This document shows positions 29,217 through 37,534 of a stretch of DNA of 49,833 nucleotides, piece by piece. The stretch is from the NCBI GenBank assembly GCA_030429235.1, contig JAUIDB010000030.1:1-49833 (forward strand), written 5' to 3'. How positions within the stretch are numbered: position 1 is the first letter of the stretch; each line of letters begins with the position of its first letter. The DNA comes from Thermoanaerobaculia bacterium. GTDB taxonomy: Bacteria; Acidobacteriota; Thermoanaerobaculia; Multivoradales; JAIOJS01. The position numbers were made by a program, and so were the translations under genes. The notes beneath the pieces are model-generated. The model was not told the origin of the DNA. It saw nothing but the letters and a program-made list of their open reading frames with translations, and did no database searches.

Positions 29217-29741
29217 TCAGTTCGTCTCGGGACGCAGGCGCTCTTCCAGCCGGCGAAGAACTGGTACCGGCACCAGACCCGACAGGTCGCCCCCCAGACG
29301 AAAGACCTCCTTGACGAGGCGACTCGACACGAAGGTGTACTCCTCGCGCGGGGTCAAGAAGACGGTCTCGATCCCCGGATCCAGGCGGCGGTTCATCAAG
29401 GCCATCTGAAACTCGTACTCGAAGTCGGAAACCGCGCGCAGTCCCCGGATGATAGCGCGCGCACCCAGGCTCTCGACGAAGTCGACCAGGAGGCCCGAGA
29501 AACTCTGTACCGTGAAGATCGGGTCCTCGCCGACGACCTCACTGATCATGGCCACCCGCTCGTCGACCGAGAAAAGCGGCCGTTTTTCTTCGTTCTCGAG
29601 CACTCCCACCACCACCCGATCAAACAGCGGCTTGCAGCGCCGCATGATGTCGAGATGCCCTCCGTGCAGTGGATCGAACGAACCGGGATACACGGCGATC
29701 CGGGGGCCGGCAGAAGCGGTCGGATCGCTGCTACCACTCAT
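29217..29741 (-). CDS. coaD: Phosphopantetheine adenylyltransferase
   Basis: A 174-residue nucleotidyltransferase catalysing the penultimate step of coenzyme A synthesis, joining phosphopantetheine and ATP to dephospho-CoA. The nucleotide-binding motif is YPGSFDPLHGGHLDI (18-32), followed by RGLRAVSDFEYEFQMA and VSSRLVKEV near the C-terminus, all typical. A short polar N-terminal tail (about 13 residues) precedes the first strand. The ATG overlaps the stop of the propeller gene (ATGA). Confidence 0.96.
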   Translation of the reverse strand: MSGSSDPTASAGPRIAVYPGSFDPLHGGHLDIMRRCKPLFDRVVVGVLENEEKRPLFSVDERVAMISEVVGEDPIFTVQSFSGLLVDFVESLGARAIIRGLRAVSDFEYEFQMALMNRRLDPGIETVFLTPREEYTFVSSRLVKEVFRLGGDLSGLVPVPVLRRLEERLRPETN

Positions 29742-31924
29742 CGTCGGAGCGTCTCCACGTCGATGGTCACGCGATTGAAGGCAGCATCCATCAGGCGGAC
29801 CACCACGAAAGATCCCTCTTCAGGCACCGGCAGCAGGAGGGTCTCGGATCGGGAATCGAGAAGACCGTCCTCGGGACGCACGTCCTGCCATTCGCCCGCG
29901 TCGACGCTGTACTCGGCGCGGCGTATCGGGTTCCATCGGTCGCGTACATCGATCCGTAGTGTAGCCCCGCTCCGCTGAGCCTGCACGACTTCCGGTGGCG
30001 AGTGATCGATGACCACCGGCTCGCTCTGCCGGCGATCGACGAGTCCCTTCGGGTTCCCCTCCGCATCCGAGGCCGACAGCTGAAACCGGTAGATGCCGTC
30101 GGGAATGCCGCTGACGTCAAAGCTCAGGTGTTCCTCTTCGTGCTCATCCACGACATCGATCCAACGTTCTCCACCCTCGGGTCGAAACTGGAGCCGGTAG
30201 CGCAACGGGTCTCCGTTGGGGTCGCTGGCGGCCCAGACCAGGGTCCTGAAGCCCTGCTTCCACACGGACTTGTAGCGCTGCACGTTGTCGGCATCCGTCG
30301 TTTTCAGCGTCGTGAAGATGCCCTCTCGGTTGGGATGGACCGGTTCGAAGATCTGTTGGCTGGGGTTGAAGCTCTGAGGCACCTGGATCTTCCCGGGAGG
30401 CCAAACCTCGAGTTTGCTGATCCGGGGAGCAAGGTTGTGCTGACGGTAGGAGAGCTCCGCCGAGGACAACGTCGGCGAGGCCGCGCCGCCCTTGGCCAAC
30501 ATCCGCCACTGCACGAACCGGGCTGCGGGAAGCGTGCTCAACGAGAGATCGGTGCCCGCGCGAGGCTCGGTCCATTCCGACCAACTCGCATCCGGTTCGG
30601 CACTCGAGCCGCTGCGGAAGGAAAACCGTAGCGAACTCCCGTTCGGAACCTCGCCAAAGCGGTGGAAGGTGCCGAACTCCGCCATCTGACCGGCGTCGAG
30701 TACCGGACTCACATAGCTGCCTTCCCGCTGGCGACCGCTACTGAGCCGATAGAGCGCGGAAGCATTGGAGGTCGCCAGGGCCGGCAGTCCCCCTTCGTCC
30801 GGCAACAGACTGACGATCTGGCGTTCGTCGATGTCGTTCTCGAGAACCAGTTCGCCGCCCTGCAAGGAGTAGAGTCGTCCTTCGAGCCCCGTTCCGACCC
30901 ACAGGCGATCAGAACCCCAGTACATCGAGAAGACGGTGTCCTCGGCGAGCCGTGCCACCGGCTCGACCTCACCCTGCGGCGCAATGCGCAGGATCTCGGA
31001 GCGGGGACCGCGGTGGCCCGGAGGGCGAGAACCCACCAGGTGCACTCCGGTCTCCTCCACCAGTACCACCGCCGTCCCCTCTTCACTGCTGTCATCACCG
31101 CTGGTCGAGGTTCCCGCCGCAGGCAGTTGACTGGCTTCGGAAGCGAGCACCGCAGCCCAGACCTCTCCTCGCTCTCCCGCCGTAAGGGCCACGACCTCGG
31201 GCTCGGGAGCATCGTAGAGGGTGCGTACCGTCCCCTGCGGGCCGATCTCTACGATCAAACCCTCACCAGCAGTCCCGGCCACCAGGCTGCCGTTGGAGCG
31301 TGCCAGCAGCGTGCGGACGTGGGTATCGTCGCTGTCCCACACGGTGCGAATCGTTTCGTCCGGAAGCACCTCCAAGAGTTTCCCCTCGGTGCCGGTAGCG
31401 ACCAGAAGCGTACCGTCGGAACGCGGAATGATCTGCCAGATGTAGGTCTGCCCCAGCTCGATACGACGCTGGAGTACGCCTTGGGCCCAGTGGTACAACG
31501 AGCCGTCGGGGGAACTGCCGGCGTACACCGAGCCGTCCGCCCCCACCGCGACGGCGAAGACTTCTGGCTCCTCGGTCTCGAACAGTAGCTCGACTCCGCC
31601 TTCGGGGCGCACCAGCGTCACCCGGCCGTCGTTGCCCGTACCGACGACCCAGCCCTCGGGATGCTTGGCCGCCGCCAGCACGAACGGCTCTTCGAGACCG
31701 CTGTGCCTCTCGGCCCGGGCTGCGAGACGCAGCGTTCCCAGGCTGTCCACGCTGATCCCGTCGAGCGTCCCGCCGAGGAAGCCCGGTTGGTCCTGGAGGC
31801 GAAAGATCTTGACCTCCGAGGCAGTTGCCACTGGCGATACCCCCAACCCGCACAGGCCGAAGACAGCCACCCGCCGAGCGATGCGGAGGGCCCTCGTTAC
31901 TACCGTTCTCTTCACTGGCTCCAT
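29738..31924 (-). CDS. Secreted beta-propeller protein with C-terminal Ig-like domains
   Basis: A 728-residue exported protein without recognised enzymatic motifs. A signal peptide covers about residues 1-35 (basic start, VAVFGLCGLGV, then ATAS). Residues 60-430 contain repeats of about 40-50 residues with Gly-Thr-Gly and DGSVYAGSSPDGSLY patterns, characteristic of a propeller. The C-terminal third has fibronectin or Ig-like features (LVWAASDPNGDPLRYRLQF; AEYSVDAGEWQ). It may bind cell-surface polymers or scaffold other envelope proteins. GAGGAG stands 4 nt before the ATG. It lies between the S55 protein and coaD, and its stop overlaps coaD. Confidence 0.82.
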   Translation of the reverse strand: MEPVKRTVVTRALRIARRVAVFGLCGLGVSPVATASEVKIFRLQDQPGFLGGTLDGISVDSLGTLRLAARAERHSGLEEPFVLAAAKHPEGWVVGTGNDGRVTLVRPEGGVELLFETEEPEVFAVAVGADGSVYAGSSPDGSLYHWAQGVLQRRIELGQTYIWQIIPRSDGTLLVATGTEGKLLEVLPDETIRTVWDSDDTHVRTLLARSNGSLVAGTAGEGLIVEIGPQGTVRTLYDAPEPEVVALTAGERGEVWAAVLASEASQLPAAGTSTSGDDSSEEGTAVVLVEETGVHLVGSRPPGHRGPRSEILRIAPQGEVEPVARLAEDTVFSMYWGSDRLWVGTGLEGRLYSLQGGELVLENDIDERQIVSLLPDEGGLPALATSNASALYRLSSGRQREGSYVSPVLDAGQMAEFGTFHRFGEVPNGSSLRFSFRSGSSAEPDASWSEWTEPRAGTDLSLSTLPAARFVQWRMLAKGGAASPTLSSAELSYRQHNLAPRISKLEVWPPGKIQVPQSFNPSQQIFEPVHPNREGIFTTLKTTDADNVQRYKSVWKQGFRTLVWAASDPNGDPLRYRLQFRPEGGERWIDVVDEHEEEHLSFDVSGIPDGIYRFQLSASDAEGNPKGLVDRRQSEPVVIDHSPPEVVQAQRSGATLRIDVRDRWNPIRRAEYSVDAGEWQDVRPEDGLLDSRSETLLLPVPEEGSFVVVRLMDAAFNRVTIDVETLRR

Positions 31925-31970
31925 CGGTCTCCTCGGGTCGATAGGGTTCGAGTTGGGTGATTCTGCTCTC

Positions 31971-33911
31971 TCATGCTCCCAGTGGAACTCCTCGGGCCAC
32001 GGTTTCGGTGGCAGCATCGGTCGGACTCGGCTGGCCCTCGCTCCCGCCCTCCCCACCGGAGTCGGACGCATCGGGGTCCTGGGCCGTCACCGGGTCGGGG
32101 CGCACCACCTCGAGGTCGATGCGAACCCCACCTGCGATCGGTACTTCGAGCCGTTGGCTCGACTCTTGCGCGACCACCAGACGCAGGGGAACGGCGCTCT
32201 TCGACGCCGCACTGGTCCACAGGCTTTGCATCGAACCCGGGAGCTGAGGCAGGACCTCGCCGGCTACGGCGAGCCCCCGCCCCGAATGCAAGCCGAGCAC
32301 GACGAGATCGCGTCGCGAGTGAAAGCCTTCGACGATCTCCAAGGCCTGTTCCAGTCGCACCGGTGAGGCCGGTTCGACCTTGGCCCGCTGCAGATCGATG
32401 GTCACCCCATCCCCCACCAGCAGGGAATAGCGACCCGCCGGCAGTTCCTGGGGAACCCGGATCGGTAGGCGATGGCGAATCACTTCGCCCCGGTACGGCA
32501 CGAACTCGAGATTCAGGTTCACCTCCTGACCGGGCCGCACCTTGGTGCGGTCGGCGTAACCACCCACCAGAATCGCCGTTCTGGGTTCGGGGTGCTGGTA
32601 GATGTCGATCTCCAATCCGTGCAGCACCACCTCGTCAAAGGCGTTCTGGAGGAAGAAGTTGACATAGCCGAGCACGAACATCGCCGCCTCGCTGGCCGCC
32701 GTCAGACCATCGAAGCTCTGCTCCAGGGCCAGGACACCGTGCGAACCCAGGTCGAAACGGACGCTGAGATCGAGTCCCATCGGTCCGATAGTGGTCGAGG
32801 CCGAGCCCTGAGCCCCCAAGGTCGCTACCGCGGCCAAGGCAGCGGTGAGTTGAGGAATCCTGGCCAGTCGCATGGTGTAGCGCTGCGGTTCGGGGACGTG
32901 CACCGTCACCACCATGGGCGTGGTCTGTGCCTCGACTCCGAGCGTGCCCCGGACTCCGGGTTGACGGTCCTGGTGGAAGGCGCCGATGGTCTTCCCCAGA
33001 CTCGCGATCTTGAACGAGTTCGCCGCACTCGGCATCACGGTGATGATCTCCGACTCCGCCATCGGCACCGAGATCTCGCCCAGCGAGTAGAAGGGGTGTC
33101 CGAAGGCGAGTACGTCCTCGCCGATCCGGTCGGTCACGGTGCCGGTGGCAGCCAGGCGCAGGTCGCCGTCCACGAGCACGGCAGCCACCGAACTGCCCGG
33201 GGGCAACAGGACCCCGTTGTCCGTGGAGACCGCTTCGGAGGCCGCGCCGATCGGGGCCAGGGGACCGAGGCTCCGCGTCAGTTGGGTCTCGATGCTCGTC
33301 GGAAAGCCGGTGATGCCCCACCCCACGGCCGGTGCGGTCTGCGAACCCTGACTGGGACGCAACTGCTCGAACGCCTCGTGCAACGTCGAAACCGCGTCAC
33401 GCTGATGCAGCAGATCGTAGACCGATGGCGCCGGAGTGGCCGAACGCAACGCGTCCCCCAGCCCCCCCCCGGCCGCTCCGCCGGCTCCGATCGCGCGCAT
33501 CGAAGCGATCGGAGTGATGCCGGCGATCGGGTCCTTGGCGAAGGCCCAGGAATAGGCTACGGCGCCTAGAAGCCGGTCTCCGATGTAGACCGGGCTACCG
33601 CTCATCCCGGCGATGATGCCCGAGTGCTCCAGTCCCTGACCGCTCAGGCGAGCGACGACGTAGTCCTGGCCGGGCGAAGTGTTGCGTACGACTCCGAGGA
33701 CCTCGAATTCGAAACGCTCTCGGCTCTGACCGGCGAAGACCGACAGGCCCCAGCCGCGTTGGCCGCGCTCCACTTCGTCGAGGGAGATGATCGGAGCGTA
33801 TTCGCTGGAACCCTGATCAGGCGTCGCCGACGCCCCAGATCCGTTCGACGAACCCGAGACCATACCGGCGAACAAGAGACCCGAAAGGAGGAGAGAGAAT
33901 TGCAGTTTCAC
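31971..33911 (-). CDS. Secreted protein with SpoIVB-type S55 peptidase motifs
   Basis: A 646-residue exported protein (signal about 1-20). It contains the S55 serine motif GMSGSP at 102-107, followed by GDRLLGAVAYSWAFAKDPIAG, which matches the same region of Bacillus SpoIVB. A Gly-His motif (FGHPF, His272) and the segment TIGAFHQDRQPGVRGTLG (308-325) match SpoIVB segments that in SpoIVB come before the serine motif. Here they come after it, so the two halves appear in swapped order. The C-terminal 250 residues are beta-rich with a Ser/Gly/Asp-rich tail. Spore formation is not implied; the group is common in Acidobacteria. Whether it is an active protease is unproven. GTG start overlaps the tsaC stop (GTGA). 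Confidence 0.82.
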   Translation of the reverse strand: MKLQFSLLLSGLLFAGMVSGSSNGSGASATPDQGSSEYAPIISLDEVERGQRGWGLSVFAGQSRERFEFEVLGVVRNTSPGQDYVVARLSGQGLEHSGIIAGMSGSPVYIGDRLLGAVAYSWAFAKDPIAGITPIASMRAIGAGGAAGGGLGDALRSATPAPSVYDLLHQRDAVSTLHEAFEQLRPSQGSQTAPAVGWGITGFPTSIETQLTRSLGPLAPIGAASEAVSTDNGVLLPPGSSVAAVLVDGDLRLAATGTVTDRIGEDVLAFGHPFYSLGEISVPMAESEIITVMPSAANSFKIASLGKTIGAFHQDRQPGVRGTLGVEAQTTPMVVTVHVPEPQRYTMRLARIPQLTAALAAVATLGAQGSASTTIGPMGLDLSVRFDLGSHGVLALEQSFDGLTAASEAAMFVLGYVNFFLQNAFDEVVLHGLEIDIYQHPEPRTAILVGGYADRTKVRPGQEVNLNLEFVPYRGEVIRHRLPIRVPQELPAGRYSLLVGDGVTIDLQRAKVEPASPVRLEQALEIVEGFHSRRDLVVLGLHSGRGLAVAGEVLPQLPGSMQSLWTSAASKSAVPLRLVVAQESSQRLEVPIAGGVRIDLEVVRPDPVTAQDPDASDSGGEGGSEGQPSPTDAATETVARGVPLGA

Positions 33912-36287: not shown

Positions 36288-37352
36288 TCAGGAGGGCCTC
36301 TCCTCCGACCCGGCGACCGACCCATGCTCCGCGGAGTCGTAGGCCGTCGTGCGGTTGCGGCCGTTCTGCTTCGAGAAGTACAAGGCACGGTCGGCCGCTT
36401 CGTAGAGTGCGTCTCCGCGCTTGAATCCGGTCTCGAGTTCGGCGACGCCGAACGAACTGGTAACTGGAACTTCGAAGCCCGCGTAGCGAAACGGCTTGGC
36501 TTCGATTACGGCGCGCAGCTTCTCCGCCAGCTGCACCGCCTTCTCGCGCGGGGTTTCCGGTAGCAAAGCCGCGAACTCCTCACCGCCGACGCGCGCGAAG
36601 ATCTGTTCCGAGCGAAGCAGTTCGCCGACCTTCTCGGTGACGCGCTTCAGCACGTAGTCGCCGCACAGGTGACCGTAGTCGTCGTTGACCTTCTTGAAGC
36701 GGTCGATGTCGAACAGGATGAGAGACAGGGGGCGCCCGTACCGTTCGGCGCGCACCGCCTCGCGCTCGATCTCCTCCTGGAACTTCCGCTTGTTGAAGAT
36801 CTCGGTCAGACCGTCGCGCATGACCAGGTTGTAGATCGCCAGGTGGTAGGCGTTCTCCACATCCTTCTCGTGCAGGAACTTGAAGTGCACCGCCCCCACC
36901 TGGAATCGATCGCCACTGCGCAGGGTGTTCTCCCCCTGGATCAGGCGGTCGTTGATGTAGGTGCCGTTGGTACTGCCGGTGTCTTCGAGCACCACCTCCG
37001 AGCCCCGATGCTCGAGGCGGGCATGGGTTCTAGAAATCGACAGAACCTCGGGGAGCGTGATCTCGGCCGCCGGAGACCGACCGATCTCGATCACCGATCC
37101 CGGACGCAGCCGAAACCTCGTGCCGAGCAAGCGGTTTTCGGGATGGGCAATCAAGATCACGTTGGCTTCGACGCTCGGCGCCTCGACCTGAGGCTCGCGG
37201 TGGGCCAAGGTGGCCTGAAAGGCCTGCGTCCTCCCCGCCTCTCGGAGAGCCGAAATCTCGATACTGTCGGTGCTCGAATCAGACAACTTGGACGAAGACT
37301 TCCTTGAAGATTTGCGACTTCCCGATGACCGTCCAGGACGGCGCGGCTTCAT
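36288..37352 (-). CDS. FHA-domain diguanylate cyclase
   Basis: A 354-residue cytoplasmic protein. A basic, Ser-rich N-terminal tail (residues 1-60) is followed by an FHA phosphothreonine-binding domain (about 65-160; IGRSPAAEITL, SRTHARLE and GSTNGTYIN are diagnostic) and a GGDEF domain with GGEEF at 256-260 and DIDRFKKVND. The position of the inhibitory I-site, five residues before GGEEF, reads RSEQ instead of RxxD, so product inhibition is probably lost. Output would be c-di-GMP made in response to Ser/Thr kinase signalling. A TTG codon directly before the ATG is an alternative start. It leads the run recN-tsaC-S55-propeller-coaD-add. Confidence 0.93.
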   Translation of the reverse strand: MKPRRPGRSSGSRKSSRKSSSKLSDSSTDSIEISALREAGRTQAFQATLAHREPQVEAPSVEANVILIAHPENRLLGTRFRLRPGSVIEIGRSPAAEITLPEVLSISRTHARLEHRGSEVVLEDTGSTNGTYINDRLIQGENTLRSGDRFQVGAVHFKFLHEKDVENAYHLAIYNLVMRDGLTEIFNKRKFQEEIEREAVRAERYGRPLSLILFDIDRFKKVNDDYGHLCGDYVLKRVTEKVGELLRSEQIFARVGGEEFAALLPETPREKAVQLAEKLRAVIEAKPFRYAGFEVPVTSSFGVAELETGFKRGDALYEAADRALYFSKQNGRNRTTAYDSAEHGSVAGSEERPS

Positions 37353-37534
37353 CAAAACAGAGAATTCCTCTTGGTCGAACCGGGGCCGAGCTTAGCACAG
37401 CGATGGTATCGAAGGGGGTCCAGGGGATCGCCGTGGCGCCACCCTTCGGACCCGAGCCAGGCCTCGTACCGCGAGGCTGTGACCACCGGCAGAGGCTGTC
37501 GGTTGACCGGCTTCATTCCCGAGCACCGAGCGCC

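Follow-up and report, generated by a model that had tools for sequence, protein, structure and literature searches.

In Bacillus, the S55 protein SpoIVB (Pfam family PF05580, PDB entry 9lnf) carries its active-site segments in the order LGHV, which contains His236, then TIGDINRNSPFG, then GMSGSP (GMAGAP in the crystallised chain). The SpoIVB sequence used here matches PDB chain 9lnf_A over 101-426. Similarly, in HtrA/DegP and other PA-clan proteases, a His/Asp barrel comes first and a Ser barrel second. In the crystal structure of SpoIVB, according to Zhu et al. 2025 (PMC12502668), Asp363 is about 24 Å from His236, and Thr393 was suggested as the third catalytic residue. No permuted PA-clan, or chymotrypsin-like, protease was apparent among the matches listed in the literature searched, with subscription papers and preprints largely outside its range. 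The phrase 'peptidase S55' returned no paper from that literature.

Here, we describe an S55-type protein with the two halves in exchanged order. The gene lies in a 49,833-nucleotide stretch of Thermoanaerobaculia DNA, which we call the window. The features are listed below.

31971-33911, minus strand: permuted S55-type protein, 646 amino acids, GTG start (open reading frame and translation)
33486-33800, minus strand: Ser half, residues 38-142, equivalent to the SpoIVB/HtrA C-terminal barrel and made of six strands with a short helix
33591-33608, minus strand: GMSGSP, residues 102-107, with Ser104 and Ser106; Ser104 corresponds to SpoIVB Ser378 by alignment
33231-33485, minus strand: linker between the halves, residues 143-227 (about 85-90 residues), partly helical in the model secondary structure
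32886-33230, minus strand: His half, residues 228-342; counterpart of the SpoIVB N-terminal (His) half by hhalign
33162-33164, minus strand: Asp250, which lies between the first two strands of the His half and is nearly invariant
33090-33104, minus strand: FGHPF, residues 270-274, with His272; this corresponds to SpoIVB His236 by alignments
32955-32990, minus strand: TIGAFHQDRQPG, residues 308-319, holding Asp315 (32967-32969), the candidate third catalytic residue
32106-32879, minus strand: residues 345-602; up to about 440 a unit of helices and strands, followed by an all-beta region that looks Ig-like (read from the strand list)
29738-31924, minus strand: partner gene for a secreted-looking beta-propeller with a C-terminal beta region, 728 amino acids from the ATG at 31924

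An earlier note, made from the sequence alone, had placed GMSGSP, FGHPF and the segment holding Asp315 at these residues and had given the opposite order for SpoIVB. Translation of the minus frame confirms the positions, and the match to 9lnf_A bears out the order in SpoIVB. The Ser motif comes first, and His272 follows Ser104 by 168 residues. By eye, the N-terminus resembles a signal peptide, and the protein may be exported. Residues 345-602 have no Pfam match and no convincing hhalign match to SpoIVB. The closest named relative in the genome collection is from a Thermoanaerobaculia MAG, with 66% identity over the best segment.

Order of the two halves

The Ser half is recognised by several methods. 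PF05580 scores 29.3 bits, against a cut-off of 25, and is matched at E <= 0.01 in all 81 sequences scanned. Note that, in the window protein, the match pairs residues 34-131 with profile positions 105-201 of 210 only. On half a match, Pfam and NCBIfam place these proteins with the S55 family of SpoIVB, and this hides the exchanged catalytic halves. The SpoIVB equivalog of NCBIfam, TIGR02860, gives 23.9 bits, under its cut-off of 305.25. Searches of PDB sequences found SpoIVB (9lnf) through the Ser half, with E 0.0014 for the single protein and 1.5e-8 for a profile of 81 rows. In the single-protein alignment, Ser104 falls on SpoIVB Ser378 (the 9lnf chain number plus 96). For comparison by hhalign, we built a SpoIVB profile from four sequences: one is the 9lnf stretch with its serines restored to wild type, and the other three are SpoIVB proteins encoded in plasmid records. 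The Ser half matches this profile with E 1.6e-13. In structure comparisons with VIA-align, residues 38-150 resemble HtrA/DegP 149-258 (Z 8.6-8.7, 103 aligned, rmsd 3.4) and the Ser half resembles SpoIVB 9lnf 311-426 (Z 6.8, 109 aligned, rmsd 4.3). A Ser-bearing, six-stranded barrel of the PA clan is present, as seen from likeness to HtrA C-terminal barrels with Z up to 8.7. Foldseek, with the whole model against the PDB, returned nothing at E <= 0.001.

The His half was compared using residues 228-342 of our query alignment, A2, which has 81 rows. This stretch matches the SpoIVB His half over 71 columns (score 32.9, E 2.1e-4), in co-linear fashion, spanning GTxT...GH through G.GTL. None of 400 column-shuffled controls reached the same score (mean 13.4, SD 2.3, maximum 21.9). 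Similarly, 19 control windows, from residue 343 onward, scored at most 14.7 against the SpoIVB profile. The match weakens with fewer rows: 20 rows gave E 0.034 against one SpoIVB and E 0.022 against four.

Rather than a permutation, the His half could be a barrel of unrelated or independently duplicated origin in which a GH motif arose, with convergent likeness to the SpoIVB His half. The comparisons with fewer rows, at E 0.022-0.034 only, point that way, as does the preference of the isolated His half for C-terminal barrels in structure comparison (described below). However, the score from all 81 rows is well above the shuffle maximum and the match is co-linear. Furthermore, when compared with the Ser half of the same protein, the His half gives E 0.34, which is not convincing. 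We consider an origin of this kind quite improbable.

For permutation, the order of halves can be compared directly. Moving the His half ahead of the Ser half produced one co-linear alignment with the SpoIVB profile, of 172 columns and score 108.2. The native order aligned over 82 columns with a score of 87.2. Scores were 87.3 to 90.0 when other stretches, or the reversed His half, were placed ahead of the Ser half. When the His half was shuffled and then joined ahead of the Ser half (n=300), scores had a mean of 87.5 and a maximum of 97.4. Hence, while S55 proteins have the His half before the Ser half in a co-linear domain, the order here is exchanged.

Other searches with the His half gave less. 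Its profile did not find SpoIVB among PDB sequences, citrate synthase alone being returned (E 0.35). A Pfam scan of 20 His-half members matched PF05580 in two (best E 0.037), and seven other Pfam families in one member each (best E 0.025). The linker region, taken as residues 138-240, has no convincing match to the SpoIVB profile (E 0.72). The earlier note had also considered a second serine motif after residue 325. There is none: in 81 aligned sequences, G461 and P487 are the sole invariant columns in that part, and the nearly invariant ones there include no Ser. An origin by duplication and trimming might have left part of a second Ser barrel beyond residue 318, but such a remnant was rejected. 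Residues 318-445 gave E 0.14 against SpoIVB and E 0.05 against the Ser half, neither of them convincing. They also match the His half, but through residues 318-342, which both contain, and this is uninformative.

Candidate catalytic residues and predicted fold

Conservation was assessed in 249 distinct sequences, including the window protein, from several phyla. These derive from 270 rows: the 81 of A2 and 189 from 190 further loci, one locus having no matching frame of 300 amino acids and being left out. Ser104, Ser106, His272 and Asp315 are invariant in 249/249, as are G102 and the whole of S104-P107. M103 is present in 246/249 and position 250 is Asp in 248, with Glu in one. Among the 81 aligned sequences, GMSGSP, G271-H272, G310 and D315 are all invariant.

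Asp315 is aligned opposite SpoIVB Asn290, and the other three SpoIVB sequences of the profile have, by eye, Ser, Asn and Asn. From this alignment, we propose that the permuted family may have kept the PA-clan acid lost by SpoIVB, with Asp315 as the candidate.

The earlier note had allowed for loss of catalysis with the elements kept. The barrels would then be a binding scaffold, and the Ser, His and Asp residues structural or ligand-binding. Consistent with this, position 119, opposite the Thr393 put forward by Zhu et al. (PMC12502668), is Ala or Ser in 247/249 sequences (196 and 51, respectively), with Cys and Gly once each, and is never Thr. In addition, we know of no proteolytic activity reported for any member. 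However, pseudo-enzyme families usually lose at least one catalytic residue in some lineage. Since Ser104, His272 and Asp315 are kept in every one of the 249 sequences, lost catalysis is not supported, and a permuted fold without proteolysis is unlikely. Instead, as judged from residue conservation, the permuted S55 sister family is probably active as a protease.

The AlphaFold2 model of the 646-residue protein, made with 81 sequences, has pLDDT 87.8 and pTM 0.85. It contains two units of six strands each.

First unit: strands 52-58, 64-79 and 82-90, then Ser104, strands 107-110, 113-121 and 129-134, helix 135-139
Second unit: strands 241-249, 252-263 and 266-269, then His272, strands 278-293, 299-316 (with Asp315) and 319-324

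In the model, Ser104 and His272 each follow the third strand of their own unit, and Asp315 is at the end of the fifth. Chymotrypsin-type barrels have Ser, His and Asp at the same places. The spacing between His272 and Asp315 is 43 residues; in chymotrypsin, the equivalent spacing is 45. The predicted strand order is consistent with that of the two chymotrypsin barrels, except that the C-barrel precedes the N-barrel. Circular permutation, as suggested in the earlier note, is supported by this strand order together with the exchanged-order profile alignment of both halves.

Folded alone, residues 190-352 gave pLDDT 85.3 and pTM 0.73. For the isolated His half, nearly all of 50 matches listed by VIA-align are PA-clan proteases, by title, with Z from 5.0 to 7.1; note that values of at most 7.1 are under the trustworthy level of VIA-align and may mean a common arrangement only. 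SpoIVB is absent among these 50, which excludes nothing, and Foldseek found no match at E <= 0.001. Nearly all of the listed alignments, read by residue number, involve the C-terminal part of the PA-clan protease and not the N-terminal barrel. The N- and C-barrels of PA-clan proteases resemble each other. We read the matches as a likeness between the two barrels, and identity of the His half with an N-barrel is not proven by them.

Alternatively, the His and Ser halves might pair across a dimer, or with the propeller, and not within one chain. The separation of the halves, by about 85-90 residues, would suit such an exchange, but the single-chain pTM of 0.85 suggests defined packing within one chain. 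Domain-swapped pairing seems very improbable to us.

If the halves meet, coevolution might link them. A mean-field analysis was done with 222 columns and 249 sequences (Neff about 200). The top-ranked pairs are mostly within one half. Among inter-half pairs, coupling is seen between strand 117-123 and the loops that surround His272 and Asp315 (residues 269-276 and 312-319). Of the 20, 50 and 100 highest-ranked inter-half pairs, 3, 6 and 10, respectively, are in this block. Slid windows of the same block size hold, on average, 0.2, 0.5 and 0.9, respectively, and just 40, 8 and 2 of 6633 windows have at least as many pairs. Note that the windows were fixed after a first ranking had been looked at; they follow the expected neighbourhood of chymotrypsin Ser214. 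When the ranking was repeated on five subsamples of 70%, between 2 and 5 of the top 50 inter-half pairs were in the block. The strongest inter-half pairs, for example I141-G319 and I100-V292, are outside the block. Coevolution thus offers indirect support for the halves meeting.

Distribution and the propeller partner

S55 peptidases are reported to be widely detected in acidobacteria and absent from two Acanthopleuribacteraceae strains (PMC8841776). Our survey found an S55-type match in 141/147 genomes of the host class. For the host phylum, the count was 281/297 genomes and 162/167 genera. Both surveys include the window's own genome. Hence, the swapped motif order reported in the earlier note is real, and not due to chance, the motifs being constant throughout the alignment. 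PF05580 was matched in 93 of 99 sampled genomes of the phylum. Since every listed match falls within profile positions 104-202, no SpoIVB of canonical order was seen in this sample.

Matches occur in other phyla. Taking phyla from record titles, and counting fragments as matches, we found 16/16 genomes for the phylum of Latescibacterota records, 60/79 for KSB1, 47/80 for Cloacimonadota, 33/119 for Candidatus Brocadia, 24/77 for Myxococcales and 6/81 for Gemmatimonadales. Nearly every genome surveyed in the host phylum has the permuted form, which recurs in these other phyla. No SpoIVB relatives were confirmed in viral contigs.

Immediately downstream of the S55 gene is the gene for the propeller. 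The ATG at 31924, 46 nt past the S55 stop, is our choice of start; the longest open reading frame is 29738-32071. The protein matches Pfam Reg_prop with 22.1 bits, against a cut-off of 20.4, and no NCBIfam family at E <= 0.01. Of 80 loci, 73 have at least 1500 nt downstream. Of these 73, 69 have a propeller homologue immediately downstream in the same orientation, representing several phyla (60 by a script rule and nine with a long open frame that overlaps the S55 gene). No downstream propeller was found in the other four, one of which has 2228 nt downstream only. In the sample of 99 genomes, the S55 and propeller matches are both present in the same 93 and both missing from the same six. Because five of the six are under 88% complete, joint absence is well supported only by the remaining genome (G192, 99% complete). 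Four further genomes from the family of G192 are also without an S55 match in the phylum survey. In some genomes, at least three among them, both matches are present and non-adjacent. We conclude that the permuted S55 protein probably works with its propeller partner.

In the window, 4-nt overlaps are found between recN and Sua5, between Sua5 and the S55 gene, and between the propeller gene and coaD. These overlaps suggest an operon. An FHA-GGDEF protein is encoded upstream of recN (36288-37355, minus strand), and there is a match upstream of recN in five other loci. Seven loci with Planctomycetota titles (Brocadia, Jettenia, Kuenenia and others) have a Sua5-like match upstream of S55, on the opposite strand. 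The same-strand Sua5-S55 order belongs to the window's class, unlike those seven.

Shared synteny with Bacillota was also considered, given recN-spoIVB-spo0A in one plasmid record and recN-Sua5-S55 in the window. We treat this as coincidence since, across the 80 loci, recN or Sua5 is upstream on the same strand only in those closest to the window. Separately, records of Sedimentibacter and Monoglobus filed as plasmids (NZ_CP142397.1, NZ_OY725742.1 and OY725880.1) have spoIVB near spo0A. The first also has recN near spoIVB, and the third also encodes a SpoIVB relative. With core sporulation genes on board, such 'plasmids' may be chromosomal pieces.

Comparison with known proteases

The most likely identity of the protein is a permuted S55-type serine protease acting with the propeller. 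More fully, we have good confidence in a secreted, or periplasmic, S55/PA-clan serine endopeptidase that has a circularly permuted double barrel. The chain would run from the Ser barrel, through the linker, to the His/Asp barrel. The two barrels would pack as in SpoIVB or chymotrypsin, allowing His272 and Asp315 of the second to activate Ser104 of the first. Substrate binding or presentation, or regulation of the protease, would most likely be the role of the C-terminal beta region and of the propeller encoded alongside.

If this is true, one of the best-studied protease folds has been permuted in nature. On balance, we lean towards the broader view that the chymotrypsin-type double barrel has undergone a natural permutation, fixed in several phyla and near-universal in one, with a full Ser-His-Asp triad, the Asp of which SpoIVB lacks, and an obligate pairing with a secreted beta-propeller. 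The invariant Asp at a chymotrypsin-like position would then bear on the disputed acid of the SpoIVB triad, where SpoIVB has Asn. The S55 and propeller genes also constitute a conserved two-gene module, present in almost all genomes sampled from the host phylum.

The likeness to HtrA/DegP, and to other PA-clan proteases, has two parts. Residues 38-150 match their C-terminal barrel. In the second unit, His follows strand 3 and Asp closes strand 5, as in chymotrypsin.

For SpoIVB, both the Ser half, with GMSGSP, and the His half, with GTxT...GH...TIG...G, are recognisable by profile, but their order is exchanged. SpoIVB Asn290 is replaced by Asp315, and SpoIVB Thr393 by a residue that is almost always Ala or Ser. 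The permuted protein has an extra C-terminal region and a partner gene for a propeller. SpoIVB has a PDZ domain, whereas PF05580 is the sole Pfam family at E <= 0.01 in the 81 members scanned, a threshold below which a diverged PDZ could fall. To our knowledge, the host lineage is not known as a spore former. Because the equivalog score, the order of the halves and the PDZ domain all set these proteins apart, the name SpoIVB should not apply; they are a permuted sister family of S55.
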